Part shown: positions 18,710 through 38,067 of the stretch, piece after piece | Numbering within the stretch: position 1 is the stretch's first letter | Layout of the letters: each line of letters starts with the position of its first letter | Virus record (IMG/VR): IMGVR_UViG_3300011013_000038 | Span: 1-38,067 of that record | DNA length: 38,067 nt | DNA from: a virus | Strand: one strand, 5' to 3' | Translations under genes and position numbers: made by a program | The notes under the pieces: generated by a model | What the model was told of the DNA's origin: nothing | Databases searched by the model: none | Seen by the model: only the letters and a program-made list of their open reading frames with translations

Positions 18710-19782
18710 TGAGTAAGTATCAAGAATTATTTAACCAGTTACAAAAAGAAAAGGCAAATAGGCCATCAGGCGTCAATGATCACATCATGATATTTGATGG
18801 TCTAAACACCTTTATTAGAGCATTCTCAGCAACTCCTTCATCAAATGAAGATGGCGATCACGTAGGAGGAATTACCGGATTTTTATATAGTATAGGAAAA
18901 TGTGTAAGAGACTTCAAACCAAGTCGTTGCATTGTAGTATTTGATGGAGTTGGTGGCTCTAGGAGAAGAAGAAAGATAAATAAAGATTATAAAGCAAATC
19001 GAATTAATAAAACAAAATTAAGAAGACACGACCATTACGATATAACCGTCGAACAAGAACAACAAGAAATGCGCCGTCAATTTAGCAGAGTGGTTTCATA
19101 TTTAGATTGTTTGCCTGTTACATTTTTAGCGATGGACGGAATTGAGGCAGACGATACTATATCATATATAGTTGGGATGTTTGACGAAGATATATTAAAG
19201 CCAAAAGAAGAACAAAGTAAATTTACAATTGTTTCAACAGACAGAGATTTTTATCAATTAATAGATAATAGAATACGAGTATGGTCTCCTATCAAAAAGA
19301 AAATGTATACCACAGAAACGGTACTAGAAGAATTTGGAGTACATCCAGCAAATTATGTAATGTATAGAACATTTACAGGCGACAAATCGGATAATATACA
19401 AGGTGTTAAAGGAATAGGACCAAAGACATTATTAAAACACATTCCTGATTTAGCATTATCATTGGATTATACGCCGGCAGATCTTCGGGGAGATTGTATA
19501 GAAAAATTAGATGAATCTAAAACATATCAAAAGATGTTAGACAATATAGATTTAATTGAAGAAAATTGGGACTTAATGAATTTAAATATTTTAAATTTTC
19601 CAGCACAAACAAAATCAAATATTCGCAACATTATAAATGCTCCAATAACCACATTAAATAAAGTCGAATTTCGCAGATTATTTATGGAAGATAAAATGTG
19701 GTCGATTATGAAAAATATGCCAGATTGGTTGAACAATACGTGGCTTTCTTTAAGTGCCTTCGCACAACAAACACATAAATAG
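18709..19782 (+). CDS. rnh: 5'-3' exonuclease / flap endonuclease (T4 RNase H-like)
   Basis: 357 residues, a size similar to T4 RNase H (305). It has the PIN/FEN signatures: MIFDGLNTFIRAF near the N-terminus, GITGFLYSIGK, VVFDGVGGSRRRRKINKDYK, DGIEADDTISY, STDRDFYQL, and the helix-hairpin motif TGDKSDNIQGVKGIGPKTLL. The conserved Asp residues of the two-metal site are present. It removes RNA primers and flaps during lagging-strand synthesis. It overlaps uvsX by one base. Confidence 0.92.
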   Translation: MSKYQELFNQLQKEKANRPSGVNDHIMIFDGLNTFIRAFSATPSSNEDGDHVGGITGFLYSIGKCVRDFKPSRCIVVFDGVGGSRRRRKINKDYKANRINKTKLRRHDHYDITVEQEQQEMRRQFSRVVSYLDCLPVTFLAMDGIEADDTISYIVGMFDEDILKPKEEQSKFTIVSTDRDFYQLIDNRIRVWSPIKKKMYTTETVLEEFGVHPANYVMYRTFTGDKSDNIQGVKGIGPKTLLKHIPDLALSLDYTPADLRGDCIEKLDESKTYQKMLDNIDLIEENWDLMNLNILNFPAQTKSNIRNIINAPITTLNKVEFRRLFMEDKMWSIMKNMPDWLNNTWLSLSAFAQQTHK

Positions 19783-23209: not shown

Positions 23210-23528
23210 ATTTTTAGAACCAGAGAACGTAGACAGTAAAATGTTTCGCCGATGTGTTAAAGTTATATTAAAACAATCACCACTACAACTTCATATGACT
23301 AATGATTTATGTCTAAAACGATATAAAAAAAATATCGTGGACTTTATATCTTATTTAATTAAAATAGGAGAAAAATTAGAAGAATATGAAGATTGTAGTA
23401 AATTGATTATACAACAAAAAGATTATAAAACGTGGGTACGAATTAATTTAGATACTATTAATAGCATTTCGAAATTAATAAAAAATACCGAAGAAAATAT
23501 AAAAAATGACAATAGAAAAAAGCATTGA
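23199..23528 (+). CDS. Small unknown protein ahead of folE
   Basis: 109 residues, mostly helical and lysine-rich (FRRCVKVILKQSPLQLHM, KNIVDFISYLIKIGEKLEEY, LDTINSISKLIKNTEENI). No family was recognised. It is the first gene after a TTGGAT-17-TATATT promoter, has no strong ribosome site, and overlaps folE by 23 bases, so it is probably the leader gene of the folE operon. Confidence 0.6.
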   Translation: MKFEFLEPENVDSKMFRRCVKVILKQSPLQLHMTNDLCLKRYKKNIVDFISYLIKIGEKLEEYEDCSKLIIQQKDYKTWVRINLDTINSISKLIKNTEENIKNDNRKKH

Positions 23529-24168
23529 ATTAGTTAGAGAAGGATTTGCTAATGGAGTAGTTCCAGGAGGTCCTTTATCAGATCAAGAAAGACAACAAAT
23601 GATACAAAATGCAGCGTATGCATTTGGTAATTTTTTAGATGCACTAGGATGTCATTGGCAAGATGATCCAAATTCGGATAATACTCCAATGCGTGTTGCT
23701 AAAGCATATGTAAATGATTTATGGGCAGGTAGATACGAAGGAGCTCCAGATATTACAGCATTTCCATCTGATGGTTATGATGGTATGGTATTTGAAGGCG
23801 GCATTCCTTTAACATCGATGTGTTCACACCACCACCAAACTATATTAGGCAAAGTTCATGTAGCTTATATCCCAGGGGAAGATAGCAAAGTAATTGGATT
23901 GAGCAAATTAAATAGATTAGTAGAACATTTTGCTAGAAGAGGAGCAATACAAGAACAATTAACAGTTGCAATACATAATGCTATTGATACTATTATATGT
24001 AATAATAAAGGAGTAGCAGTTATGGTAGAAGCTACTCATAATTGTGTACAATGTAGAGGAGTTAAACATGGCGGAGCATCAATGAAAACTTCAAAGCTAA
24101 CAGGAGCATTTAAAGATGATAGTGCAACTAGAGCAGAGTTTTACGAATTTATAAGAGGTTATAATTAA
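23506..24168 (+). CDS. folE: GTP cyclohydrolase I
   Basis: 220 residues, standard FolE length. Zinc ligands are visible as CSHH (Cys106, His109) and Cys180 in THNCVQCRG. The active-site signature GKVHVAYIPG is followed by KVIGLSKLNRLVEHFARRG. It converts GTP to dihydroneopterin triphosphate, the first step of 7-deazaguanine (and of folate) synthesis. QueD and QueE follow, so here it most likely feeds base modification of phage DNA. The start overlaps the previous gene; MTIEKSIELVREGF is the first sensible start. Confidence 0.95.
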   Translation: MTIEKSIELVREGFANGVVPGGPLSDQERQQMIQNAAYAFGNFLDALGCHWQDDPNSDNTPMRVAKAYVNDLWAGRYEGAPDITAFPSDGYDGMVFEGGIPLTSMCSHHHQTILGKVHVAYIPGEDSKVIGLSKLNRLVEHFARRGAIQEQLTVAIHNAIDTIICNNKGVAVMVEATHNCVQCRGVKHGGASMKTSKLTGAFKDDSATRAEFYEFIRGYN

Positions 24169-24179
24169 AATTTAAATAT

Positions 24180-24335
24180 ATGAAACAACCAGACGCAAAA
24201 AAACACCAAACAATAAGTTTTATTAAATCAGGAATAAGAATATTAGGTTATATATTAATTCCTTTTGATTTACCTTTAGCAGCAGGTATTCTAGTATTTA
24301 GTGAATTTATAGGAATAGTAGAAGAATTAGTATAA
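24180..24335 (+). CDS. Small membrane protein
   Basis: 51 residues. After a polar start (MKQPDAKKHQ) nearly the whole protein is hydrophobic (IRILGYILIPFDLPLAAGIL and VFSEFIGIVEEL), with a possible re-entrant or double membrane segment. Small proteins with this LGY-x-LIPF / SE-x-IGI-x-EEL pattern are familiar in marine phages, but their role is unknown. The stop overlaps the start of queD (TAATG). Confidence 0.7.
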   Translation: MKQPDAKKHQTISFIKSGIRILGYILIPFDLPLAAGILVFSEFIGIVEELV

Positions 24336-24814
24336 TGGGAAAATTTCAATCAACAAAAATATTTGACAACTACTCAGTTGCAATAAGACAATGGAAAGCA
24401 CAACATTCACATTGTCAGTTATTACATGGGTATGCTTTAAAATTTAAAGTATGGTTTGAATCTAATACTCCATTTGATGAAAATATGGGGTTAGATGATA
24501 TGAATTGGATTGTAGACTATGGTGGATTTAAAGATAAGCCAATTGGAAATGGTTTAAAATCATGGATGAATGATATGTGGGACCATACCTTATTAATTCA
24601 AAAAGATGATCCTTATTATGATATATTCGAACAAATGGGACAAATGGGATTGGCTAAAGTACATTTTTTAGATAAAATGGGAGCTGAATCTTGTGCTAAA
24701 TTAGTTTATGATCATTTTAATGATGTTTTATCTAAAACTGATGCTGGAAGATGCAAAGTAGTAAAGGTAGAATGTTTTGAAAATGATAAAAATTCATCAA
24801 TATATTATGGGTAG
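24335..24814 (+). CDS. queD: 6-carboxytetrahydropterin synthase
   Basis: 159 residues. The PTPS-fold signature is WKAQHSHCQLLHGYALKF: His24/His26, catalytic Cys27 and His31, with Tyr33 where most homologues have the third zinc His. WDHTLL supplies the catalytic Asp83-His84 pair and GAESCAKLVYDHF the substrate-anchoring Glu. It converts dihydroneopterin triphosphate to 6-carboxytetrahydropterin, the second step of 7-deazaguanine synthesis. One-base overlap with the upstream small gene. Confidence 0.88.
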   Translation: MGKFQSTKIFDNYSVAIRQWKAQHSHCQLLHGYALKFKVWFESNTPFDENMGLDDMNWIVDYGGFKDKPIGNGLKSWMNDMWDHTLLIQKDDPYYDIFEQMGQMGLAKVHFLDKMGAESCAKLVYDHFNDVLSKTDAGRCKVVKVECFENDKNSSIYYG

Positions 24815-25034
24815 AAAAGAAAAATGGATAGCCGAAGCTAAGGGGAAAGTTAGACCTGGCTCTACTATAGATAGATTTCACCAATTGGTAGATTGGGATG
24901 AGTCTTATAGAACTCGTAACCATCTTAAGAGAAAAATGAGGAGAAGAAAATGGTTTGGATGGATAGATGATATTATGTTTAATATTAAATTAAAAATATT
25001 ATCACGACAAAGACAAAGAAAAAATAAAAAATGA
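24807..25034 (+). CDS. Small strongly basic protein
   Basis: 75 residues from the ATG at 24807, which overlaps queD by 8 bases; an ATG at 24783 and a TTG at 24777 are also in frame. It is rich in Arg, Lys and Trp (KRKMRRRKWFGWIDDIM, ILSRQRQRKNKK). It could bind nucleic acid or membrane, but nothing specific is visible. It is coupled to the next gene by a 4-base ATGA overlap. Confidence 0.55.
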   Translation: MGRKEKWIAEAKGKVRPGSTIDRFHQLVDWDESYRTRNHLKRKMRRRKWFGWIDDIMFNIKLKILSRQRQRKNKK

Positions 25035-25318
25035 AAACACTATTTACAGTAATAATTTCATCAGTGTCAGGATTTTTTCTAGGAAGACATTTGAAGTTTA
25101 GATCTAAAAACTACGGAGTTACAAGAAAAATGTTTTTAACACTCGAACGGGGTGAAATAGACAGAAAAATAGAAATTGCCTTAGATTTAGAAGACTATGG
25201 TGCAGCAATGACATTACACAGAAAAAGAGAAAAATTAGATAATAAGTTAAAACGAGTTAAAAAAAGAGAAGAAAAAAGAAATGCACGACAAAAATCTAAT
25301 AGAAGAACCAAATCTTAG
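25031..25318 (+). CDS. Small N-terminally membrane-anchored basic protein
   Basis: 95 residues. An N-terminal hydrophobic segment (LFTVIISSVSGFFLGRHL, residues 3-20) is followed by a charged helical region and a very basic tail (KRVKKREEKRNARQKSNRRT). The likely topology is one membrane anchor with the basic tail in the cytoplasm. No family was recognised. Its 3' end overlaps queE by 38 bases in another frame. Confidence 0.6.
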   Translation: MKTLFTVIISSVSGFFLGRHLKFRSKNYGVTRKMFLTLERGEIDRKIEIALDLEDYGAAMTLHRKREKLDNKLKRVKKREEKRNARQKSNRRTKS

Positions 25319-26117
25319 TAAAATAATGGGAAGGAAAATGGGGGCCTTAAAACGAATAGAAGATTACAATAAAGTATTACCCATTTGTGAAGTATACCGA
25401 TGTGTTCAGTCAGAGGGCAGTAGATTTGGAAGACCAACTATTGCTGTTAGAACAACAGGATGTACCCATCGGTGTTATTTTGGAGAAGGCGGTTGGTGCG
25501 ATTCTTGGTATACAAGTATCCACCCAGAAAAAGGAACATTTTGTTTCAATGACATTGTAAAAATATATGATGAAAATCCTCATGTAAAAGAAATGATGTT
25601 AACTGGTGGTTCGCCTACAATGCACAAAACATTAGTAAATGAAATAACACATTTTGCTAAAAAGAGAGGAATATTTGTTACAATTGAAACAGAGGGTAGT
25701 CATTTTCTAGAAACAGATTATCCAATTGATTTAATATCACTTTCGCCCAAGTTTTCAAATTCAATTCCTAAATTAGGAACCAAAACACCTAAGGGAGTTG
25801 ATGTAGATGAAAGAATGATCAAACAACATAATAAATTTAGATTAAACACTACTACAGCATTTAAGACCCTTCAATATCATAAAGATTATCATTTCAAGCC
25901 AGTATGGGATGGTACGGAAGAAAATTTACAAGAAATTGAAGAATATAGGCAACTTATGTTTATTCCAAAAAATAAAACATATATAATGCCGGCAGGAGAT
26001 ACAAGAGAAGAATTAATACGAATGTATCCTATAGTATTCGAGATGGTAGCAGAACACGGATATAATATGACAGGAAGAGACCATATTATAGCATATAACA
26101 CAGAAAGAGGAGTATGA
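25281..26117 (+). CDS. queE: 7-carboxy-7-deazaguanine synthase (radical SAM)
   Basis: 278 residues from 25281; the ATGs at 25326 and 25338 are in frame and could be the true start. Signatures are CVQSEGSRFGRPT (the Gln-x-Glu-Gly loop of QueE) and GCTHRCYFGEGGWCDSW, the cluster loop, which reads Cys61-x3-Cys65-x7-Cys73 instead of the common spacing. MLTGGSPTMH is the SAM-binding GGxP motif. It contracts carboxytetrahydropterin to 7-carboxy-7-deazaguanine. The stop overlaps the next start (GTATGATG). FolE, QueD and QueE together are a complete route from GTP to this base. Confidence 0.9.
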   Translation: MHDKNLIEEPNLSKIMGRKMGALKRIEDYNKVLPICEVYRCVQSEGSRFGRPTIAVRTTGCTHRCYFGEGGWCDSWYTSIHPEKGTFCFNDIVKIYDENPHVKEMMLTGGSPTMHKTLVNEITHFAKKRGIFVTIETEGSHFLETDYPIDLISLSPKFSNSIPKLGTKTPKGVDVDERMIKQHNKFRLNTTTAFKTLQYHKDYHFKPVWDGTEENLQEIEEYRQLMFIPKNKTYIMPAGDTREELIRMYPIVFEMVAEHGYNMTGRDHIIAYNTERGV

Positions 26118-26272
26118 TGGAAAATTTTGCAGAGGCATTTGAAATAATAGATGAAATTGAAGATTCGGCAGGAGAGTGTTGTGCAATAACATTAGACCCA
26201 GATGAAATTATAGAAAAATGTGGTAAATTACGAAATATATTACAAATTATTATAGAGGAAAATAAGTTATGA
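26114..26272 (+). CDS. Small acidic protein
   Basis: 52 residues (or 51 from the second ATG at 26117). It is mostly helical and acidic (FAEAFEIIDEIEDSAGECCA, DEIIEKCGKLRNILQIIIEE), with three Cys including a Cys-Cys pair. It is joined to queE and to the GroES-like gene by 4-base overlaps on both sides, which supports it being real. Function unknown. Confidence 0.55.
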   Translation: MMENFAEAFEIIDEIEDSAGECCAITLDPDEIIEKCGKLRNILQIIIEENKL

Positions 26273-26574
26273 AAATGAAACCAATCGGAGATCAAGTACT
26301 TTTAAAAGAACATGAAAAAGCTGATAAAACAGAAGGCGGTATTATATTAGTTGATGGTGCATATGATGAAGAATTTGTATATGCAGATGTAATATCAGTT
26401 GGAGCCGGATTGTTTACACAAACAGGAAATAGAATACCAATGACTGTAAAAGTTGGAGATCGTATTTTAATTAGCAAGAACAATTTAGGTGGACAAAAGA
26501 AAGTTAAATTAGATGGGGAAGAATATATTTTAGTGAGGGAAATGGAAATATCAATGGTATCGGTAGAACAATGA
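26269..26574 (+). CDS. GroES-like co-chaperonin (gp31-type role)
   Basis: 101 residues, GroES/Cpn10 size. The order is KPIGDQVLLKEHEKADKTEG, then the mobile-loop region GGIILVDG, YADVISVGAGLFTQTG, VKVGDRILISKNNLGG and a final EYILVREMEISMV. It would cap the host GroEL, as T4 gp31 does for capsid folding. By sequence it is nearer cellular GroES than gp31. Coupled on both sides by short overlaps. Confidence 0.88.
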   Translation: MKMKPIGDQVLLKEHEKADKTEGGIILVDGAYDEEFVYADVISVGAGLFTQTGNRIPMTVKVGDRILISKNNLGGQKKVKLDGEEYILVREMEISMVSVEQ

Positions 26575-27083
26575 AAAAATTAATAGACGAACACGATTTA
26601 AGTATTAAGATAAAAATACTTGCTAAACAACTTTCTGATGATCACAGAGATAGTAAAACTCCAGTAGTGGCAGTTTGCATCTTAAATGGAGGATTCATGT
26701 TTTTTGCAGACTTTGTTAGAGCAATGCCAATTGATTTAGAATGTGATTTTATGCGTGTTAAATCATATGTTAAAAAACGAAAACAAGGAGATATTGAGAT
26801 TACAAAAGATTTAGAAGTTCCTATCAAAGGAAAACATGTTTATATAATCGATGATATATTTGATACAGGCAATACAATGCGAGCAGTTATTGATTATTTG
26901 CGAGTTAAGAAACCCAAATCATTGAATATTGTCACTTTATTAAAAAGAGAAGATTCTCCAATCTATGATATAGAATGTCCAGTATATACTGTTATGGATC
27001 TTAAAGATGAGTGGGTAGTAGGTTATGGATTAGATGATGACAAAGGACATTGTAGAAATTATAAGAATATATACGAAGTTTAA
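26571..27083 (+). CDS. hpt: Hypoxanthine/guanine phosphoribosyltransferase-like protein
   Basis: 170 residues, standard length for bacterial Hpt. The PRPP loop IIDDIFDTGNT is at 92-102. VVAVCILNGGFMFFADFVR is the loop I region, and DEWVVGYGLDDDKGHCRNYK the base-binding end (usually VVGYGLD-x-x-x-x-x-RN). It would join hypoxanthine or guanine to PRPP. Salvage of purines to GMP/GTP would feed FolE, an inference from the neighbouring que genes. The symbol is by function. Confidence 0.85.
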   Translation: MKKLIDEHDLSIKIKILAKQLSDDHRDSKTPVVAVCILNGGFMFFADFVRAMPIDLECDFMRVKSYVKKRKQGDIEITKDLEVPIKGKHVYIIDDIFDTGNTMRAVIDYLRVKKPKSLNIVTLLKREDSPIYDIECPVYTVMDLKDEWVVGYGLDDDKGHCRNYKNIYEV

Positions 27084-27084
27084 T

Positions 27085-27113
27085 TTTGATTTTTAAAAAG
27101 TATTTCTTATTTT
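27085..27113 (+). promoter_or_regulatory. Weak candidate promoter of denV
   Basis: TTTGAT 27085-27090, 17 bp, TATTTT 27108-27113, with 8 bp to the denV ATG. It keeps the geometry of the TTGGAT set but both boxes deviate. Confidence 0.35.
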
Positions 27114-27121
27114 AAAGAAAA

Positions 27122-27538
27122 ATGACTAGAATTAATATTATATCACCGAGTGAATTAACAGATCAGCATTTAATAGCTGAGTATAGAGAAATAACGATGG
27201 TACCTGCTGCACTTAAAAGAACGTTAGCAAGTAAAGCAGGTTTATGTATGAATAAAATTAGTAAAAAATTTACTCTTAATACTGGCCATGTTTATTTCTT
27301 TTATGATAAAGGATTATATTTAAATAAACGATATAATGAAATAATCGATGAAATGAAATTACGAGGCTTTAATCCAGACCCTAACAGAAAATTCCCAAAA
27401 GAAATTTTTCCGGATTTTTTATATAATGATTGGATTCCTTCATATCAAGAGCAACAACTTGTTAGACAACGCATAGAAGAAAAAATAGCAATGAAACCAA
27501 ATTGGTATCGTCGTACAAAAATAAAAAAATACTTATGA
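27122..27538 (+). CDS. denV: Pyrimidine-dimer DNA glycosylase/AP lyase (T4 endonuclease V)
   Basis: 138 residues; T4 DenV has the same length. The start TRINIISPSELTDQHLIAEY matches DenV, including Thr2 (the catalytic N-terminus once Met is removed), Arg22 and Glu23 in EYREI. GHVYFFYDK, a 'RGFNPDP' segment and a C-terminal PNWYRR also align. It removes ultraviolet-induced cyclobutane dimers. A weak TTTGAT-17-TATTTT promoter ends 8 bp before the ATG. Confidence 0.95.
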   Translation: MTRINIISPSELTDQHLIAEYREITMVPAALKRTLASKAGLCMNKISKKFTLNTGHVYFFYDKGLYLNKRYNEIIDEMKLRGFNPDPNRKFPKEIFPDFLYNDWIPSYQEQQLVRQRIEEKIAMKPNWYRRTKIKKYL

Positions 27539-27759
27539 TTGAATTATTAGGATGGATAAGCACAGGATTAGTATTAGCAGGATACATTTTCAATTCGAGA
27601 GGTCGTACAAGTAATGCAATGATTGCTTGGATAGTTGGAGATACTGGCTGGATAGCTTATGATTTTTTTATTGACAATTATAGTCACTTAGTACTAAGTT
27701 TAATAATTATATCTATTAATGTTTATGGTATGTATCGAATATATACAGCGAAAGGATAA
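27535..27759 (+). CDS. Small multi-pass membrane protein (PnuC/YgjV-like fragment)
   Basis: 74 residues starting at the ATG that overlaps the denV stop by 4 bases; a longer reading from GTG at 27502 is less likely. It has two or three membrane segments (IELLGWISTGLVLAGYIF, IAWIVGDTGWIAYDFFI, LVLSLIIISINVYGMYRI). The internal pattern resembles half of a PnuC-type or YgjV-like protein, but it is too short to be a known transporter. The DNA polymerase gene starts at the next base. Confidence 0.65.
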   Translation: MIELLGWISTGLVLAGYIFNSRGRTSNAMIAWIVGDTGWIAYDFFIDNYSHLVLSLIIISINVYGMYRIYTAKG

Positions 27760-30270
27760 ATGTATCAAAATATAGCATTTCACAAAAAGACAAACACAAT
27801 GCACGTGTGGGATGACGAATTAGGTCATCAAACAATAAATTTCCAACCATATGGATACATTCCAGACGAAAATGGAAAATATGTTTCATTAAATGGACAA
27901 AAATTAAGTAAAGTTTCTGGAAATCACAAGGATAATAGGAATGCATATGAATCTGACTTAAATGAAGAAGTTAGAACATTAATAGACTTATATTATGATT
28001 CGGATAAAGTATCAACCGGACATTCTGATTTCTTTTTTGACATAGAAACAGCAAAAGACGAATATGGATATTCAACTCCAGAAGATGTTCGAACCCAAAT
28101 AACTTCCATAGCATATTATGATAAAACAGGTAAAGACCGAAGAGTTCTAGTTTTAGATGAACGTAAACGACTATCTGATGATATTATTTATGGAGATAAT
28201 GTAACTATTGAATCTTTTGGTACTGAAGCTGATATGTTAATTAAATTTATTAATTACTTTTCAGCAATACAGCCAACAGTAATTACAGGGTGGAACACAG
28301 ATGGATATGATATTCCATATTTAATAAATCGCATTAAAAAAGTATTAGGTCCAAAGTCAGTAAAAAAATTATCTCCAGTAGGAATTGTAGAATGGAATAA
28401 ACATCGTGAAAAATATAAAATATTTGGGGTATCAAGTTTAGATTACTTGCCACTCTATAAAGCACAGCCAGGAAATGAAAGACCAAATTACCGATTAGAC
28501 ACAATAGCTAAGTTTGAGCTAGGCAAAGGTAAAATTGAATATGATGGAGATTTAGATTTATTATTTGAAACAGATATTAATAAATTTATAGAATATAATA
28601 TGACTGATGTCGATCTTGTTTATGAATTAGACGAAAAGTTACAGTTAATTAATTTAGCAAGAACAATATGCCACAAAGGACATGTTCCTTATGAAGATGT
28701 ATACTATTCATCGAAATACCTAGATGGCGCAGCAATAGTAGATTTAAAAAGAAATGGATTGGTAGCTCCAAATAAACAATTTAGGTTTGTCGAAGAAGAA
28801 CGACAAGATAAATTAGCAGGAGCATATGTAATGCCACCAACACCAGGATTATATAAATGGATCTATGACTTAGATTTAACTTCACTATATCCTAGTATAA
28901 TAATGAGTCTTAATATTTCGCCAGAAACAAAAGTAGGCGTAATTTCCAATTGGAAACAAGAATCATTATTAAGCAAAGACCCAGTTAGTGTAAAAATTAA
29001 TGGACAGCCAATTAATGATGTAAAATCATGGTTAATTGAGAATAAATTTACAGTTGCAAGTAATGGGGTAGTATATGATACTAGAGGTGTTGGATTTTTA
29101 CCTAGAATATTAAAAAAGTGGTTTGCCGAACGTGTTGAGTTTAAAACTGAAAGAGATAAACACAAAGTAGGATCTGAAAAATATAAATTTTACGATGCAG
29201 AGCAATTAGCACAAAAAACACTACTTAATAAGTTTTATGGTGTATTAGGATTAAAAACATTTAGGTTTCATGACTTAGACAATGCAGGAGCAATAACAGC
29301 CACCGGCCAGAGTGTAATTAAGTTTTCTGCAAAGGTCATTAATGCTTATTATAAAAAAGAAACAGGAAAAAACAATTTTAGAAATGCAACAGGCAAAAGA
29401 GTAGATTTTTCATTCTATACAGATACAGATTCAACATTTGTTTCTAGTTTGCCAATTATAGAAAAGCGATATCCTAATTTTGATGAAAATAATGAACAAT
29501 TTATGATTGAGAAAACAAATGAAGTTGCATCAGAGATACAAAATCATGTAAATGAAATGTATGATCAATATGCATTATATTTTCACAACACAAAAGAACA
29601 TCGGTTTCAGATTAAACAAGAATATGTAGCAAAATCAGGAGTGTGGATAGCAAAAAAGAGGTATGCCCAATGGGTAATATTCAAAGAAGGAAAATCCACC
29701 GATAAATTAGATATAAAGGGCTTAGATGTAGTAAGATCATCTTTCCCTGTTGATTTCAAAGAAATAATGGAAGAGACTCTTTGGTATATACTAAAAGAAA
29801 GATCAAAATTAGATACAACTGATATGATAATGGAATTTAAGGATAAAATACAAACATCTGATATTTTAAATGTAATGAACAACACCGGTGTAAAAGAGAT
29901 TAGCAAATACACTAAAAAAAGGAAGCCGTTTTCTGGTTACCTTAAGGGAACACCAGTTCATGTTAAATCTTCTATTAATTATAATGATATGTTACATCAT
30001 TTAGGCATTGATAAAAAATTCGCAGCTATTAATGATGGAGATAAAATTAAATGGGCATATCTTAAGACAAATGCAATGGGGTTTGATAGTATTGCATTGA
30101 GGGGATATGAAGACCCAAGACAATTAACAGAATTTGTTGAAAGATATATCGATAGAAATAAAATATTTGATAGTGCACTGAGAGGCAAAATAGATGATTT
30201 TTATTTAGCAATGAATTGGGATAACTTACCAGAAAATAATAATGTAAATAAGTTCTTTTCATTTGGATAA
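27760..30270 (+). CDS. 43: Family B replicative DNA polymerase (gp43-like)
   Basis: 836 residues; T4 gp43 is 898. Exonuclease motif FFFDIETA is near residue 91, followed by TVITGWNTDGYDIPYL (Exo II) and YNMTDVDLVYELD (Exo III). Palm motifs are DLTSLYPSIIMSLN near 372, KTLLNKFYGVLG, and YTDTDST near 553. Proofreading and polymerase sites both look intact. It copies the phage genome with the clamp at 33697. The start abuts the preceding stop. The last codons and stop (TTTGGATAA) carry the -35 box of the next promoter. Confidence 0.96.
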   Translation: MYQNIAFHKKTNTMHVWDDELGHQTINFQPYGYIPDENGKYVSLNGQKLSKVSGNHKDNRNAYESDLNEEVRTLIDLYYDSDKVSTGHSDFFFDIETAKDEYGYSTPEDVRTQITSIAYYDKTGKDRRVLVLDERKRLSDDIIYGDNVTIESFGTEADMLIKFINYFSAIQPTVITGWNTDGYDIPYLINRIKKVLGPKSVKKLSPVGIVEWNKHREKYKIFGVSSLDYLPLYKAQPGNERPNYRLDTIAKFELGKGKIEYDGDLDLLFETDINKFIEYNMTDVDLVYELDEKLQLINLARTICHKGHVPYEDVYYSSKYLDGAAIVDLKRNGLVAPNKQFRFVEEERQDKLAGAYVMPPTPGLYKWIYDLDLTSLYPSIIMSLNISPETKVGVISNWKQESLLSKDPVSVKINGQPINDVKSWLIENKFTVASNGVVYDTRGVGFLPRILKKWFAERVEFKTERDKHKVGSEKYKFYDAEQLAQKTLLNKFYGVLGLKTFRFHDLDNAGAITATGQSVIKFSAKVINAYYKKETGKNNFRNATGKRVDFSFYTDTDSTFVSSLPIIEKRYPNFDENNEQFMIEKTNEVASEIQNHVNEMYDQYALYFHNTKEHRFQIKQEYVAKSGVWIAKKRYAQWVIFKEGKSTDKLDIKGLDVVRSSFPVDFKEIMEETLWYILKERSKLDTTDMIMEFKDKIQTSDILNVMNNTGVKEISKYTKKRKPFSGYLKGTPVHVKSSINYNDMLHHLGIDKKFAAINDGDKIKWAYLKTNAMGFDSIALRGYEDPRQLTEFVERYIDRNKIFDSALRGKIDDFYLAMNWDNLPENNNVNKFFSFG

Positions 30271-30291
30271 TACAAATAAATTTATTATAAT
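30263..30291 (+). promoter_or_regulatory. TTGGAT-17-TATAAT promoter of the DNA-modification operon
   Basis: TTGGAT 30263-30268 overlaps the last two codons and stop of the polymerase gene (TTTGGATAA). Spacer 17 bp, TATAAT 30286-30291, and 11 bp to the ATG at 30303. Confidence 0.7.
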
Positions 30292-30302
30292 ATATAAAAA
30301 TT

Positions 30303-30743
30303 ATGTACGGAAAAGATCAATGGATAGGCAGAGAAGTAGAAGGTCGTTACTCAGATATGATGACTTTCTTTATTAGAGCATTAGGCGACGGAATCAATGT
30401 CGACGACCTATCCCAATACCCACATTATTATTTTACAATTGAATATATGAAAAATTGGATATCCAATCCTAGCCCAAATGGCCTTAATGCAATTCGTGAA
30501 ATATTAGATACTACTAATAGTGTAGTGACATTAGAAGCAAATGATCATTTATTTGAATCTATACCACCTGATTTATTTAATAGGTGTCATATTATATATC
30601 GAATAGTAGACGATGCAGTACAAAAATTAAAAGAAACAGATACATTGAGTATTGACGCTGGGTGGTATAGAGTACACCAAGTAACCAAATGTAATATGAT
30701 GGAAATTAATCCAGACAATTATAAATTTGATCAAGAAATATGA
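30303..30743 (+). CDS. Unknown protein leading the DNA-modification operon
   Basis: 146 residues. It contains WIGREVEGRYSDMMTFFIR near the N-terminus, a YPHYYFTIEYMKNWI segment, and an IIYRIVDDAVQKLKETDT helix followed by AGWYRVHQVTKCNMME. No known family. It is the first gene after a TTGGAT-17-TATAAT promoter (gap to ATG 11 bp, no Shine-Dalgarno) and overlaps the next gene by 4 bases. Its linkage to PTPS-like, glycosyltransferase and DpdA genes suggests a role in DNA modification; that is inference. Confidence 0.6.
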   Translation: MYGKDQWIGREVEGRYSDMMTFFIRALGDGINVDDLSQYPHYYFTIEYMKNWISNPSPNGLNAIREILDTTNSVVTLEANDHLFESIPPDLFNRCHIIYRIVDDAVQKLKETDTLSIDAGWYRVHQVTKCNMMEINPDNYKFDQEI

Positions 30744-31084
30744 AATATTCAATAGTAGTATCATTTAGCGTAGAAGGATTTCATAATTGGCCAGAAGCAA
30801 AGGAAATATTTCCAGAAGTAGGATTTTTATCTGATAGGCATAGGCATATGTTTGGATTTCGATGTTATGCAAAAGTAAGTCATACAGATAGAGATGAAGA
30901 ATTTATTTTAATGCAAAGAAGATTAAAAAAACAACTAAGAACAAATTTTGGTGGTAATATATTAGAATTTGGAAGAATGAGTTGTGAGGACATTGGAGAA
31001 TGGATATTAAATAATAACCCTGGTTACCTATATAAAGTTGAAGTATGGGAAGATTGGGAAAATGGAGCAATAATAGAAAGATGA
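30740..31084 (+). CDS. PTPS/QueD-fold-like protein
   Basis: 114 residues. The layout echoes the PTPS fold: SFSVEGFHNWPEAKEI at the N-terminus, FLSDRHRHMFGFRCYAKV (compare H-x-H after the first strands in QueD), MSCEDIGEWIL (compare the TAENLA segment) and VEVWEDWENGAII (compare the closing strand with Glu). It lacks the catalytic Cys and the DH pair of the true QueD at 24335. It may therefore bind a pterin or deazaguanine rather than catalyse the QueD reaction. Coupled by 4-base overlaps to both neighbours. Confidence 0.6.
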   Translation: MKYSIVVSFSVEGFHNWPEAKEIFPEVGFLSDRHRHMFGFRCYAKVSHTDRDEEFILMQRRLKKQLRTNFGGNILEFGRMSCEDIGEWILNNNPGYLYKVEVWEDWENGAIIER

Positions 31085-32253
31085 AAAAAGTATTTTATTT
31101 TGGACTAGAGCCATTAAAGGCTAGATATACATATCAATTATCAAAAGAATGGATGCCAGCAACTTTTCAACCATATGTTGATGCTGGTAAAATTGAATTT
31201 ATTGATATAAAAGGAGAATTTGACCCAAATCAACAAATAAAGGTTGGCGCGGTATTAGATGCTATAGGCAGAGGTAAATTTGCTATGAGTCAATGTAGTA
31301 ATTTTCTTCATGCTTTAAATATTGGAGCAGTTAGTGATGGAGATGCTATATTTCTTCAAGATTATTGGCATCCAGGAATTGAATCTATATTATATGCATT
31401 AGATTTATATGGCATAAAAGTAGAAATATATGCAATGCTTCATGCACAAAGTGTAGATGAATATGATTTTACATATCCAATGCGAGAATGGATGCGAGGA
31501 TTTGAATTAGGTTTAGATAAAAGAATGACAGGGATATTTGTAGGAAGTACAATTCATAAAGACCAATTAAGACAGGCAGGATTTGAAGCCCCAATACATG
31601 TTGTTTCATTACCACTACATTTAGAAATGACTCGAGATAAATATCCTGACTATGATCCACACAAAAGAAAAAAACAAGTTGTTGTTTATTCTAGTAGGTT
31701 AGACAAAGAAAAAAACCCATTTTTTATGATGGCAGTTGCTGAGCAATATCTAGAACAATTTACTGGAGCCGAATGGCACGTAACAACATCAGGAGAAATA
31801 TTTAAATCAATGCTACCTGGCGTAATAGATGCATTATATGAATTAGCAGAAAGACAACCTAGATTTAAATTATTAAATAATCTTACAAAGCAAGAATATT
31901 ATAAAGAATTAGCAGAAGCAAAAATACAATTCAATTGCTCATTACAAGATTATGTATCATGGACAGTATTAGAATCAACTACATTTGGGTGTGATATGGT
32001 ATTTCCAAATTTCAGGTCATTTCCAGAATTTATACCACCAAGTAGATTATATACACCATTCAATGTGAATTCGGCAGTTATTAGATTGCACGAAGTGATG
32101 CAACAAAGTCAACCAAATTATAATATAGCACATTTAGCAGATTTAGGTAGACAAATGGAAGGTTACATTGTAGTGAATGGAATTGATCAAGAAATTAATA
32201 TTTGGCACGAAGCTGAATATTGCAAACATTTATTAAATAAAAACGAGGAATAA
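31081..32253 (+). CDS. GT-B fold glycosyltransferase
   Basis: 390 residues from the ATG at 31081, which overlaps the previous stop (ATGA); an in-frame start at 31045 exists but lies inside the upstream gene. The N-terminal half has VFYFGLEPLKAR, DAIFLQDYWHPG and GIFVGSTIHKDQL. The C-terminal nucleotide-sugar domain begins with VVVYSSRLDKEKNPFFMM (about 199-216), continues with NLTKQEYYKELAEAKIQF and ends near VLESTTFGCDMVFPNF, a GT1/GT4-like Glu-rich donor site. It is not related by eye to the T4 alpha- or beta-glucosyltransferases. Its position between a PTPS-like gene and DpdA makes a role in DNA base glycosylation worth testing; surface glycan modification is the alternative. Confidence 0.8.
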   Translation: MKKVFYFGLEPLKARYTYQLSKEWMPATFQPYVDAGKIEFIDIKGEFDPNQQIKVGAVLDAIGRGKFAMSQCSNFLHALNIGAVSDGDAIFLQDYWHPGIESILYALDLYGIKVEIYAMLHAQSVDEYDFTYPMREWMRGFELGLDKRMTGIFVGSTIHKDQLRQAGFEAPIHVVSLPLHLEMTRDKYPDYDPHKRKKQVVVYSSRLDKEKNPFFMMAVAEQYLEQFTGAEWHVTTSGEIFKSMLPGVIDALYELAERQPRFKLLNNLTKQEYYKELAEAKIQFNCSLQDYVSWTVLESTTFGCDMVFPNFRSFPEFIPPSRLYTPFNVNSAVIRLHEVMQQSQPNYNIAHLADLGRQMEGYIVVNGIDQEINIWHEAEYCKHLLNKNEE

Positions 32254-32255
32254 TT

Positions 32256-32435
32256 ATGAAAATTGATGCAAATGGTATTGAAGAAATACGAAATACAATT
32301 GAAACACCACTTACTGCATTGGCTGAAAAAATGAGTGATAAAGGTGTATTAGATCATCAACTAGCAGAAATCGTAACCTTTGTGTTAGGAAATTTGCAAA
32401 AGGTAGGATCTGAACCGTGGGAGGTAGTGGACTAA
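32256..32435 (+). CDS. Small protein between glycosyltransferase and DpdA
   Basis: 59 residues (MKIDANGIEEIRNTIETPLT ...), probably two helices with an acidic end (GSEPWEVVD). A good GAGGAA ribosome site precedes the ATG, and the TAA overlaps the ATG of the next gene. No family recognised. Tight packing supports a real gene that works with its neighbours. Confidence 0.65.
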   Translation: MKIDANGIEEIRNTIETPLTALAEKMSDKGVLDHQLAEIVTFVLGNLQKVGSEPWEVVD

Positions 32436-33685
32436 TGGATAAGAATTTTATATATTATCCATCGCTATCTGCAGGAAGTATGGTATCTGCATTTAAAAAG
32501 AATACAAAATTTGAAGACGGAACTACATGTAGATTCTTTTCAAAAGAGTATCCTGAACAATGGAGGCATCCATACTTTCTAATTACTGCGGGACACCATT
32601 TCAAAAAAATGGATTTTCGTGATCAGTTAGGATTAGACGATGGTGTATTAGTATTTGGAGATTCAGGAGGATTCCAGATAGCAACAGGTGCACTTAAATG
32701 GGATAAAACTATAAGAGAGCGAATATTTCATTGGTTAGAAGCCAATTCAGATGTGGCCGCAAATTTAGATATACCACCCAGAGCAAAATATGAAAATAGG
32801 TTTGCAGAATCCATGGAAATTAGTTTTGATAACTTTAAATGGTTTGAAAAACATCAAAGTGGAAAAACGAAATTTTTAAATGTTATACAAGGTACATATA
32901 ATGAAGAATATTCAGAATGGTATCATAAATTTAAAGACTTTGACTTTAATGGGTGGTGTATTGGCGGTCCTAAGAAATTAGTGGATTTTATGTATGTAAT
33001 TGCATTGATGTTACATAATAGGGAATTTGAAAAAGCACATGTACAATATGTACACTTGTTAGGGATATCAAAAATATCAGATTTCTTTATATTAGCAACA
33101 TTACAAAAATTGATGAATGAATTAACTGATAATAGGATACTATTTTCTACAGATTCATCATCGCCAGGACAATATCCGGTATTTGGAACATATTTGCATT
33201 CTAGTAATTATAAAACACAAACATTCACAGAATTATATTTTCCAAAAAATAATGAATATAGAAGAAAATCACACGCAAATAGGACGAATAAAACAGTTGC
33301 AATTGACACTACTAAACACGTGCCTTGTTCTTTGGATTGTCCTGCTTGTAAAGATTTTACTTATGATTATCTCGGGGGACAAACTACTACGGGATTAGAT
33401 AGGTATAGTCAAGAAGGAATGCCTAGGATGGTTATTCACAATACACATCTTTATGTTGAAATGGCTAAAGATGTAAGTAAATTAGTAAACAATCACGTAG
33501 AGCTTTTAGAAACAGCAATACCGAAGGATTTGTTTGATGTTATTTCATCATTACATGAAATGTTTGATGATCCTGACAAAGCATTACAAGTTTATGCAAC
33601 ATATAAAAAGACATATAAGAAATTCGGTGGAGATAGTATATCAACCACTGATGCAATTAAATTTAACGAATTTTTTAAATTTTAA
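32435..33685 (+). CDS. dpdA: DNA 7-deazaguanine transglycosylase (DpdA / TGT-like)
   Basis: 416 residues from the ATG at 32435; a GGGAGG ribosome site lies 10 bp upstream, so the in-frame GTG at 32417 is unlikely. TGT-type residues are DSGGFQ (76-81, with Asp76), LDIPP (111-115), IGGPK (176-180) and STDSSSPG with Asp240 at the nucleophile position. A zinc site is visible as Cys298, Cys302, Cys305 and His335. In phages DpdA exchanges guanine in DNA for a 7-deazaguanine made by FolE/QueD/QueE, protecting against restriction. It shares the window with these enzymes but sits in a separate operon. Confidence 0.88.
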   Translation: MDKNFIYYPSLSAGSMVSAFKKNTKFEDGTTCRFFSKEYPEQWRHPYFLITAGHHFKKMDFRDQLGLDDGVLVFGDSGGFQIATGALKWDKTIRERIFHWLEANSDVAANLDIPPRAKYENRFAESMEISFDNFKWFEKHQSGKTKFLNVIQGTYNEEYSEWYHKFKDFDFNGWCIGGPKKLVDFMYVIALMLHNREFEKAHVQYVHLLGISKISDFFILATLQKLMNELTDNRILFSTDSSSPGQYPVFGTYLHSSNYKTQTFTELYFPKNNEYRRKSHANRTNKTVAIDTTKHVPCSLDCPACKDFTYDYLGGQTTTGLDRYSQEGMPRMVIHNTHLYVEMAKDVSKLVNNHVELLETAIPKDLFDVISSLHEMFDDPDKALQVYATYKKTYKKFGGDSISTTDAIKFNEFFKF

Positions 33686-36000: not shown

Positions 36001-36212
36001 TGGGAGTACCATACCCAAAAGTACCGGTAGTATTAGTATTTAAAACATCTAATAGGTCTAATGCAAAAACTAAAATGAAAGTTTTTAAAAATAAAAATAT
36101 AGATGTTGTCAATGAGAAGAAAATGCCAGGAGTGCCAGAAAAGTCAATAATATTGGAACTAGGTGTTGGAACTAAATTTGAAGAATTATGGAGAAAGAAA
36201 TATAATATATAA
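36000..36212 (+). CDS. Small basic protein between clamp loader subunits
   Basis: 70 residues (MGVPYPKVPVVLVFKTSNRS ...), with a hydrophobic strand at 8-14, a lysine-rich middle and an ELGVGTKFEELWRKKY helix at the end. It is coupled at both ends by one-base overlaps (TAATG). No family was recognised. Its place in the replication operon suggests a supporting role, nothing more. Confidence 0.6.
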   Translation: MGVPYPKVPVVLVFKTSNRSNAKTKMKVFKNKNIDVVNEKKMPGVPEKSIILELGVGTKFEELWRKKYNI

Positions 36213-36655
36213 TGGCAAAAAAAGGCGCAACTATATTTGATTTTATCAATGGCATAACACATCAAAAGAAAGAGTGGCATTCTTATACAGAATCAGACCA
36301 AAAACGATTTGCACCGTACATAGTTAATCGTTGGCTTTCAATGAGAGTGGAATTAATTGATTTAATCAATGAGTTACAGAAGTATACAATAGGAGTATTA
36401 TCTCCTAGAGAAACTTATCGTTTATATCATGGTTTTTTACCAACAAATAAAACCTTCGCTAAGTACGTAAAAGGAAAGAAGGAAGATAAGTTTGACAAAC
36501 AATTGATTTCACAAGTTGCTGATCATTACAAAATAAGTAAAAGTGAAGCAATCGATTATGTTGAATTGATGGATAAAAATAGTTGTGCCAACTTGCTTAC
36601 AATGTACGGATATAAAGATTCAGATAAAAAGAAAATGTTAAAAGGAAAGAAATAA
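36212..36655 (+). CDS. 62: Clamp loader small subunit (gp62-like)
   Basis: 147 residues; T4 gp62 is 187. The central pattern is FAPYIVNRWLSMRVELIDLI, LSPRETYRLYHGFLP, TFAKYVKGKK and 'DHYKISKSEAIDYVEL'. This is the same order as in gp62 proteins of marine T4-like phages: a 'VNR-x-LS' helix, a basic R/K-FxK segment and a C-terminal 'Y-x-x-S-x-x-(K/E)A' helix. It lies three genes after gp44, where gp62 is expected. Similarity is moderate and recognised by pattern only. Confidence 0.65.
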   Translation: MAKKGATIFDFINGITHQKKEWHSYTESDQKRFAPYIVNRWLSMRVELIDLINELQKYTIGVLSPRETYRLYHGFLPTNKTFAKYVKGKKEDKFDKQLISQVADHYKISKSEAIDYVELMDKNSCANLLTMYGYKDSDKKKMLKGKK

Positions 36656-36658
36656 TAT

Positions 36659-36687
36659 TTGGATTTTCCGAATTAATTTCTTATAAT
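36659..36687 (+). promoter_or_regulatory. TTGGAT-17-TATAAT promoter of the small-gene array
   Basis: TTGGAT 36659-36664, 17 bp, TATAAT 36682-36687; the ATG at 36700 follows after 12 bp without a Shine-Dalgarno. The bases after TTGGAT (TTTCCGA) match those in the promoter at 23159. Confidence 0.7.
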
Positions 36688-36699
36688 ATAAATAAAAAA

Positions 36700-36804
36700 A
36701 TGGATGAAACAGGAATAGCAATAGCCGCAGTAAGTTGGTTAGCAATGATTGTATTGTTAATTATTTATAGAAAAGAAAACCAAAACAAAGATGAAAAAAA
36801 TTAA
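36700..36804 (+). CDS. Small single-pass membrane protein
   Basis: 34 residues. A hydrophobic segment (IAIAAVSWLAMIVLLIIY, residues 6-23) is followed by RKENQNKDEKN, the last part encoded by the 16-bp repeat. It is first after a TTGGAT-17-TATAAT promoter and has no Shine-Dalgarno. Its 3' end overlaps the next small gene. Confidence 0.55.
   Translation: MDETGIAIAAVSWLAMIVLLIIYRKENQNKDEKN
36778..36793 (+). repeat. Junction repeat copy 1
   Basis: AACCAAAACAAAGATG; ends in the ATG of the gene at 36791. Confidence 0.9.
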
Positions 36805-36892
36805 ACACCTATGGAGATACTTAACTAACCCAGATTATAGATTTAAGGTTTATTTAAAACGACTTAATGGAAAATATTTAAAACAAAAATGA
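36791..36892 (+). CDS. Small basic protein
   Basis: 33 residues (MKKIKHLWRYLTNPDYRFKV...), very basic. Its ATG lies inside repeat copy 1 and its stop overlaps the next gene (ATGA). No family known. Codon use and tight overlap suggest it is translated. Confidence 0.5.
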   Translation: MKKIKHLWRYLTNPDYRFKVYLKRLNGKYLKQK

Positions 36893-37098
36893 GAGATGAA
36901 TATGATATCTTTATGGGGAAGTATGAAGAAGACCACGAATGCTGTCCTAAGTGTGGAAGTGAATCATATGCAACAACATATATGGGTTACATTTTAGATA
37001 TGAATAACAAAGAGTCGTATAAAGATGAGAATAGATGTACTTGCAGTGATTGTGGGAATGTTCATATAACCCATAATAGAAAACCAAAACAAAGATGA
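36889..37098 (+). CDS. Small zinc-ribbon protein
   Basis: 69 residues with CPKC (19-22) and CTCSDC (about 50-55), a typical two-knuckle zinc ribbon. An Ile/Tyr-rich loop lies between. The end, KPKQR, is encoded by repeat copy 2. It is coupled to both neighbours by ATGA overlaps. Function unknown. Confidence 0.6.
   Translation: MRDEYDIFMGKYEEDHECCPKCGSESYATTYMGYILDMNNKESYKDENRCTCSDCGNVHITHNRKPKQR
37082..37097 (+). repeat. Junction repeat copy 2
   Basis: Exact copy; ends in the ATG at 37095 and encodes the KPKQR tail of the gene before. Confidence 0.9.
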
Positions 37099-37193
37099 TT
37101 GAATATATTGTAAATAACACTTGGGCTATGGCTTTAGTTTGTGGAATATGTGTTGCCACTATCATAGCAATTAATAAACCAAAACAAAGATGA
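37095..37193 (+). CDS. Small single-pass membrane protein
   Basis: 32 residues. A hydrophobic core (AMALVCGICVATIIAI) is followed by NKPKQR, the last codons coming from repeat copy 3. The ATG is within repeat copy 2. Too short for a family assignment; the same membrane-segment plus repeat-encoded tail plan recurs in this array. Confidence 0.5.
   Translation: MIEYIVNNTWAMALVCGICVATIIAINKPKQR
37177..37192 (+). repeat. Junction repeat copy 3
   Basis: Exact copy; ends in the ATG at 37190 and encodes the KPKQR tail of the gene before. Confidence 0.9.
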
Positions 37194-37471
37194 AAACTAG
37201 AGAAAAAGAATATGATTATTTGGACAAAGGCAACAAACTAGTTGATAAGTTGGTGTATGAGTTTTCCAATGGTAAAAAATATAGTAACATAGAATTGATT
37301 GAACAACTTAAATTTGATGGTGATGATGAATATTATGCTAGAAAATATTATCGTCATTTATCGGCATTGTTTTTAAATGTATTGTTAAACAGAACTGATG
37401 AGGTTAATTTTCATACTGGAAGGGATTATTTTGCTCATTGTTATAGATTTGTTAATCTCTTAAAGAATTAA
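37190..37471 (+). CDS. Unknown small protein
   Basis: 93 residues with a charged N-terminus (MKTREKEYDYLDKGNKLVDK), a 'NGKKYSNIELIEQLKF' segment and a helical, aromatic C-terminal half (YYARKYYRHLSALFLNVLL). No family. Its ATG lies in repeat copy 3; after its stop, repeat copy 4 begins at once. Confidence 0.6.
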   Translation: MKTREKEYDYLDKGNKLVDKLVYEFSNGKKYSNIELIEQLKFDGDDEYYARKYYRHLSALFLNVLLNRTDEVNFHTGRDYFAHCYRFVNLLKN

Positions 37472-37486
37472 ACCAAAACAAAGATG
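37471..37486 (+). repeat. Junction repeat copy 4
   Basis: Exact copy directly after the stop of the gene before; ends in the ATG at 37484. Confidence 0.9.
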
Positions 37487-37645
37487 AGAGAAATATTAAA
37501 CAGTAGAATTGTATATTACGTTGGTTTTGGTTTAAGCTATGTAGTAATTTCTAAGCTCATAGGATTTGAAGATACCGCATTGATATGTATGGGGGTTATA
37601 ATAGGAGAACAAACATATTTACAATACTTAAATGAAAAAAGATGA
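37484..37645 (+). CDS. Small membrane protein
   Basis: 53 residues with two hydrophobic stretches (IVYYVGFGLSYVVISKLIG and ALICMGVIIG) and a short charged end (LNEKR). The ATG is within repeat copy 4. The stop TGA overlaps the next ATG. A two-pass membrane protein is likely; role unknown. Confidence 0.5.
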   Translation: MREILNSRIVYYVGFGLSYVVISKLIGFEDTALICMGVIIGEQTYLQYLNEKR

Positions 37646-37803
37646 ATTGGATTAGAAACATATTATTGCTTTACATTCAATGTATGACAATTGTAGCCAT
37701 AATAAGTATGAAACCTAATAATATAGGAGGATGGATTTTATCTGTGTTATGGATAGCATCTATAGTAGGATTGTATTATATAAAACCAAAAGAAGATGAG
37801 TAA
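37642..37803 (+). CDS. Small membrane protein
   Basis: 53 residues, two hydrophobic segments (ILLLYIQCMTIVAIIS and WILSVLWIASIVGLYYI) and a KPKEDE tail encoded by repeat copy 5. The start is coupled to the preceding stop (ATGA). Role unknown. Confidence 0.5.
   Translation: MNWIRNILLLYIQCMTIVAIISMKPNNIGGWILSVLWIASIVGLYYIKPKEDE
37784..37798 (+). repeat. Junction repeat copy 5 (variant)
   Basis: AACCAAAAGAAGATG, one base shorter than the others; ends in the ATG at 37796. Confidence 0.8.
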
Positions 37804-37966
37804 AGAAGAAATTATCAAATCTATAGATGACAGAATAACTTATTATTCTAGTGGCGAAGAAATGAAGAGTATTAGTGAACTCACAAGAGACTCACATATC
37901 GTTAAAGTGCTAGAGAGTCTCAAATCCGAAGTTAGTATCATATTAAACCAAAACGAAGATGAATAA
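37796..37966 (+). CDS. Small acidic helical protein
   Basis: 56 residues (MSKEEIIKSIDDRITYYSSG ...), soluble, charged and mainly helical. The ATG lies in repeat copy 5, and the NQNEDE tail is encoded by repeat copy 6. It resembles the start of the next protein (both begin M-x-K-E-E), so the two may be related. Confidence 0.5.
   Translation: MSKEEIIKSIDDRITYYSSGEEMKSISELTRDSHIVKVLESLKSEVSIILNQNEDE
37946..37961 (+). repeat. Junction repeat copy 6
   Basis: AACCAAAACGAAGATG, one substitution; ends in the ATG at 37959. Confidence 0.85.
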
Positions 37967-38067
37967 AGAAGAAAAATTAGATAAGTTATTAAAACTTGAG
38001 AAAGAGTTAACTATAATGTTCGACTCTGACGTAAGGGTTGCATTAGCTTTATTAGAAGAGGTTAGAA
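37959..38067 (+). CDS. Small charged protein, truncated by the window end
   Basis: 36 codons are visible (MNKEEKLDKLLKLEKELTIM ...), predicted helical. Its ATG is inside repeat copy 6. The C-terminus lies outside the window, so length and function are unknown. Confidence 0.5.
   Translation, partial: MNKEEKLDKLLKLEKELTIMFDSDVRVALALLEEVR

Follow-up and report, generated by a model that had tools for sequence, protein, structure and literature searches.

Tiny genes and a repeat at the end of a phage contig

The stretch of DNA analyzed, here called the window, is a 38,067-base linear contig (IMG/VR record IMGVR_UViG_3300011013_000038) of a T4-like myovirus, with genes for tail sheath, UvsX, DnaB, PolB, sliding clamp and clamp loader. 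Its final 1.3 kb, 3′ of gp62, is a chain of tiny ORFs, all on the + strand, whose junctions mostly carry a 16-mer, AACCAAAACAAAGATG. Directly 3′ of gp62 and 5′ of the array is a sigma-70-like promoter, TTGGAT-17-TATAAT (36659..36687). The first ORF (36700..36804) specifies a 34-aa membrane peptide whose tail, NQNKDEKN, is supplied by the first exact copy of the repeat (36778..36793). There follow a 33-aa cassette (36791..36892) with homologues in G004 and L209 beside other neighbors, and a 69-aa zinc-ribbon-like cassette ending in KPKQR (36889..37098), which has a weak match to phrog_10675 and for which no relatives were found in viral contigs. Exact copy 2 (37082..37097) leads into a 32-aa membrane-peptide cassette, also ending in KPKQR (37095..37193), and exact copy 3 (37177..37192) into a 93-aa cassette (37190..37471), the protein of which is 98% identical in three other contigs. 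Exact copy 4 (37471..37486) abuts a TAA that is the stop codon of the gene upstream, and is followed by two 53-aa membrane-peptide cassettes, the first at 37484..37645 and the second, with the end KPKEDE, at 37642..37803. A shortened copy, AACCAAAAGAAGATG (37784..37798), the identical variant of which is at the swapped junction of L213 described below, precedes a 56-aa cassette that begins MSKEE and ends NQNEDE (37796..37966). A copy with a single substitution (37946..37961) comes before the last cassette (37959..38067), which is cut by the contig end, and a close homologue of which, with different sequence upstream, lies in the minus-strand array of G017. The contig thus terminates within the array, which is not extendable in this record. 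The junctions before 36889 and 37642 have only degenerate, motif-like, A-rich sequence.

The original prediction of six copies within 36778-37961 (four exact, starting at 36778, 37082, 37177 and 37471, one substituted and one shortened) was borne out by motif scan, as was the claim that the ATG of the following ORF forms the end of each copy. The protein tails that it listed, KPKQR, NQNKDE, KPKEDE and NQNEDE, are all in the ORF translations, where the repeat-encoded ends read ENQNKDEKN, RKPKQR, NKPKQR, KPKEDE and NQNEDE, and the genes that the copies separate are indeed unrelated to one another. First-order Markov replicas (2000) were generated for the last 2 kb, and none contained a 16-mer more often than twice; AACCAAAACAAAGATG occurs four times, always in the array, and has no copy in the rest of the 38,067-base contig.

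The promoter layout after gp62 is also present in L223, L229 and L231, and the same pattern is 5′ of the first repeat in G017, L213, L219 and L076. A general array promoter is not claimed, the pattern being within 400 nt upstream in only 7 of 74 arrays.

A stop-start joint for three reading frames

The full unit, of approximately 21 bp, is TAA-ACCAAAACAAAG-ATG-AGTAA, i.e. TAA ACC AAA ACA AAG ATG AGT AA. Ribosomes in one frame would meet TAA just 5′ of the ATG, those in another would add KPKQR and terminate at a stop overlapping the start as ATGA, and those in the third would add NQNKDE and terminate just 3′ of it, at GAG TAA. All three frames thus meet a stop around the ATG that follows, so that any upstream gene ends at the unit, a feature absent from the original prediction. 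Between copies, ORFs start at the motif ATG, and their ends are mostly at +8, +4 or -12 relative to the following ATG. Closure in all three frames within 18 nt characterizes 141 of 191 junctions, versus 8.3% of random ATGs, and stops in the frames not being used are retained (119/150, 139/140 and 74/92). The unit would accordingly be a frame-neutral joint: a stop before, over or just after the new ATG would close the upstream gene in whatever frame it is, and the A-rich leader, which is without a Shine-Dalgarno sequence, would with its ATG open the next gene.

There is one small gene per interval, and the median cassette is approximately 60 aa. Cassettes are mostly ORFans, with 11 Pfam families, mostly of one member each, among 100 representatives. 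Some larger genes also start at the repeat, e.g. those for thymidylate synthase and a DNA methylase; a thymidylate synthase gene follows the last array repeat in four contigs (L142, L143, L058 and L209). By direct reading, the repeat element is A-rich and is without a promoter or a G+C stem, and AACCAAAACAAAGATG has no dyad symmetry.

Distribution in viral contigs

The repeat is widely distributed beyond the window. A scan of IMG/VR viral contigs for exact AACCAAAACAAAGATG yielded at least 120 loci, as did a shuffled 16-mer ending in ATG that served as control, so that only multi-copy loci are informative and the total match count was dropped as evidence. Two to 16 exact copies are present in 43 of the 120 loci listed for the repeat; all 120 listed for the control are single. 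An extended, 28-base, form of the repeat was found in 28 stretches. When up to two mismatches are allowed, there are 31 sites in a 242-kb contig, of which 29 within the first 20 kb are junction-like, and two arrays of 13-14 copies in a 380-kb contig. Each array in the other viral contigs is confined to one strand. G017 (44.6 kb) has convergent arrays with the same repeat on opposite strands, L126 at 17957-19598 (+) and L127 (-). The same repeat is also in an array in L206 (CAKZOX010000136.1), a GTDB contig of a MAG labelled Campylobacteraceae, which was set aside as host evidence since it is probably a mis-binned phage contig with a different gene set.

Every record involved is a metagenome contig, and single-copy matches are partly chance. 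It is nevertheless scarcely credible that arrays and swaps are assembly artefacts generated by a short repeat, or chance A-rich matches, as contigs of different datasets share identical arrays (G006/G013/L083, L053/L070 and L213/L219), typical reads are longer than the repeat and the shuffled control gave no multi-copy locus. Isolated phages yielded no near DNA match to the array, and a short-motif search of them gave single, weak matches only. The isolates closest to the window by tail sheath are Flavobacterium phage immuto and Microcystis phage Mel-JY01, and the motif is absent from the 150 of 160 kb of the former, and the 26.5 kb of the latter, that were examined.

Exchange of cassettes at the repeat

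Cassettes were collected via the motif, so that those moving without it are under-counted. The 340 obtained (74 contig units) gave 228 clusters at the protein level, of which 168 have a single member, and the neighbors of shared families change. Records of 380 kb, the largest of the carriers, and 156 kb have cassettes in common with as much as 99% DNA identity. Where cassettes in different contigs have at least 75% DNA identity, the upstream sequence is unrelated in 74 of 110 pairs. The window's 93-aa cassette and its G017 counterpart have greater than 99% DNA identity from repeat to repeat (two mismatches) and no similarity outside. Over the stretch compared, G017 and L213 differ only by one substitution and by the replacement of one cassette between two repeats, a replacement also present in L219; these contigs are from different datasets. 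A search for the ends of shared DNA that was independent of cassette definitions (131 segments) located 81 left ends and 73 right ends at motifs, where random placement gives approximately 10 and 9.

Crossover positions were mapped in pairs with near-identical bodies and different neighbors, by mismatch rates scaled to those of random motif pairs (48 pairs upstream and 18 downstream, some of them not independent). The relative mismatch upstream is approximately 0.1-0.2 in the gene, 0.3-0.6 at most of the variable positions in the repeat and close to 1 beyond -16; downstream it goes from near 0 ahead of the repeat to near 1 from +4. Crossovers are thus scattered across the repeat, from roughly -15 to +6 of the ATG. 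As they fall in the repeat, the second codon often differs between otherwise near-identical genes. The suggestion that the repeat acts as homology for shuffling is thus supported: order and content of cassettes differ among the phages compared, and exchanged DNA ends at repeats. Neither result named in advance as contradicting it, conserved genes in conserved order or a repeat restricted to this stretch, was obtained.

That exchange is exact to the repeat, and that a single cassette can be replaced (G017 versus L213), is also what would be expected if the repeat were recognized, in integron-like fashion, by a dedicated phage or host recombinase, or a nicking or homing endonuclease, that has escaped recognition. 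However, neither the window nor 19 further carriers, many of these records being fragments, have a tyrosine recombinase (PF00589), with one partial match in G034, and serine recombinases are absent from 20 of 21; the repeat lacks a dyad; and crossovers are scattered along it instead of being at one phosphodiester. Such an enzyme is quite unlikely. The scarcity of recombinases and the lack of a dyad favor general phage recombination or strand annealing, which would perform the exchange over the homology of about 21 bp, and a RecA/UvsX-like gene is present in 9 of 21 carriers. Twenty-odd bp is short for RecA-type recombination, which counts against this otherwise best explanation.

Our preferred reading, which we regard as probable, is that the window array belongs to a family of tailed-phage arrays, made of single-gene cassettes, in which the linker doubles as exchange homology. 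One sequence at all joints would provide short homology for cassette gain, loss and replacement during coinfection, and with a crossover anywhere inside the unit the joint would still work. Selection for working stop-start joints would maintain the repeat sequence.

The gp62 site permits a view that does not depend on the motif, as 25 loci there were retrieved by gp62. From gp62 to a PD-(D/E)XK nuclease gene the sequence is hypervariable, even among phages whose gp62 is 93% identical; the insertion site was seen for window 36212-36655 and for loci L223-L247. Loci L223-L226 (gp62 93% identical) have one cassette and one repeat at the site, and L227 and L241 (93-94% identical) have other genes without the repeat; relatives further removed have a single unrelated gene or a few. 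In view of the motif-free genes in L227 and L241, the repeat is one route of turnover there and not the sole route.

Hosts and translation

Carrier capsid proteins, where scorable, share 26-64% identity with their counterpart in Flavobacterium phage immuto. In most carriers, long ORFs are almost devoid of Shine-Dalgarno sequences and have a leader rich in A, as expected from the sequestration of the anti-Shine-Dalgarno by Bacteroidota ribosomes (PMC9976891). Ribosomal protein bS21, reported in Bacteroidetes phages (PMC9723584), is encoded by 7 of 26 array-carrying or related records (G002, G003, G011, G013, G016, G032 and G035). Most array phages probably infect Bacteroidota. The host of the window phage is less certain because 41% of its long ORFs have a Shine-Dalgarno-like core, versus 2-4% in the best-sampled array carriers. 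Those ORFs (1223-30270) are mostly structural and replication genes, and the window's repeat is nonetheless the same as that of the carriers. Elsewhere in the window (23506-33685) are genes for GTP cyclohydrolase, QueD and QueE, together with a transglycosylase-like gene, a set suggestive of 7-deazaguanine DNA modification, for which Flavobacterium phage immuto is also annotated.

The original prediction also gave the repeat a role in translation initiation, and a part of this stands: a Shine-Dalgarno core is lacking from all array genes, whose start codon is in each case the ATG of the repeat. Nevertheless core genes are without the motif (present in 2 of 236 in G003, 0 of 161 in G019 and 0 of 108 in G025), and it is therefore not a general initiation signal. 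The same data bear on a more restrictive proposal, that the repeat is solely a signal for initiation or stop-start coupling of early small genes and is kept by expression, with exchange at gene borders being a by-product of random recombination and selection for intact genes. A start codon does adjoin every copy, and the A-rich leader resembles core-gene leaders of these phages. The near absence of the motif from core genes counts against the proposal, as do crossovers inside the repeat, with the differing second codons in near-identical cassettes, and the conserved C residues at -11, -10 and -5, which are contrary to the general leader preference. It is unlikely. (One guess is that these C residues may be kept because they interrupt what would otherwise be an A run and a poly-lysine tail.)

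The strictness of the sequence, beyond leader preference, and its overlap with the start codon of many early-type genes also bring to mind a start-codon operator for a trans-acting translational regulator, like RegA of T4. None of 17 carriers has a match to the RegA family, though control genomes are equally without one, and an operator role alone does not predict crossovers in the repeat; this explanation is very improbable. With the linker reading preferred here, translation may be driven by the A-rich leader or by termination-reinitiation.

Relation to known systems

The array was likened at the outset to a small integron without an integrase, and the likeness holds for behavior and not for identity. 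As in integron arrays, one-gene cassettes in one orientation are bounded by a repeated recombination sequence, are largely ORFans, are common to several replicons and are exchanged as single-gene units. However, the array has neither an IntI-type tyrosine recombinase nor an imperfect-palindrome attC, the window repeat being without a dyad. Moreover, unlike in integrons, start and stop codons are carried by the repeat and crossovers are spread along it.

In lambdoid phages, modular evolution via linker sequences proceeds by homologous recombination where short conserved sequences join the modules. Here too a conserved short sequence is at module borders with recombination inside it, but one identical linker is at every gene, serves any reading frame and occurs in several phage lineages. 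PeSL (Arbiol 2010, Comeau 2014) are reportedly promoter-stem-loop cassettes of T4-type phages with a proposed role in modular shuffling. The parallel is a short repeated element with a shuffling role amid small variable genes of T4-like phages; PeSL, however, comprise an intergenic promoter and terminator stem-loop (PMC4503421), whereas the window repeat overlaps coding ends and has neither. Repeats with a short core in Campylobacter group II phages, which are T4-related, enclose genes in some cases and are linked to module rearrangement, but they are 72-86 bp and separate large modules, in contrast to a stop-start joint between single tiny genes (PMC4546147).

The closest sequence type described is the Start-Associated Sequences (SAS) of Cluster K mycobacteriophages, short asymmetric repeats with 11-19 copies per genome in one orientation, directly 5′ of the ATG of non-structural genes of unrelated families, with upstream stops sometimes inside the SAS (PMC3203893). 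Shortness, single orientation and position just upstream of ATGs of non-structural genes are shared with the window repeat. In contrast to it, SAS have a Shine-Dalgarno core, AGGAG, in an unrelated consensus, GGGATAGGAGCCC, and are confined to one phage cluster; the three-frame stop and the exchange at the site that are found for the window repeat are not among the SAS properties given in the portion of their description used here (PMC3203893). Gene borders made by the repeat itself also set the present case apart. No published description of this repeat was found in the open-access literature, which was the scope of the search.

Significance

The proposal that phages evolve in modules by way of linker sequences is an old one, but to our knowledge there are not many clear, repeated cases at base level. 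In the present arrays, sequence reveals linker, exchange events and crossover interval alike, and the linker accounts for crossovers always yielding working gene joints. We lean toward a broader interpretation, of an integrase-free gene-capture platform of Bacteroidota phages, in which one frame-neutral linker, near-identical across diverged lineages including phages of 156-380 kb, would allow any small gene to be plugged in or swapped from a common pool of hundreds of ORFan cassettes. The 16-mer AACCAAAACAAAGATG is a handle for collecting a large hidden pool of small phage genes. On the mechanism proposed, the cassettes would be host-takeover or counter-defense genes, and the pool is likely one of such genes acting early, in hosts that mostly do without Shine-Dalgarno initiation.
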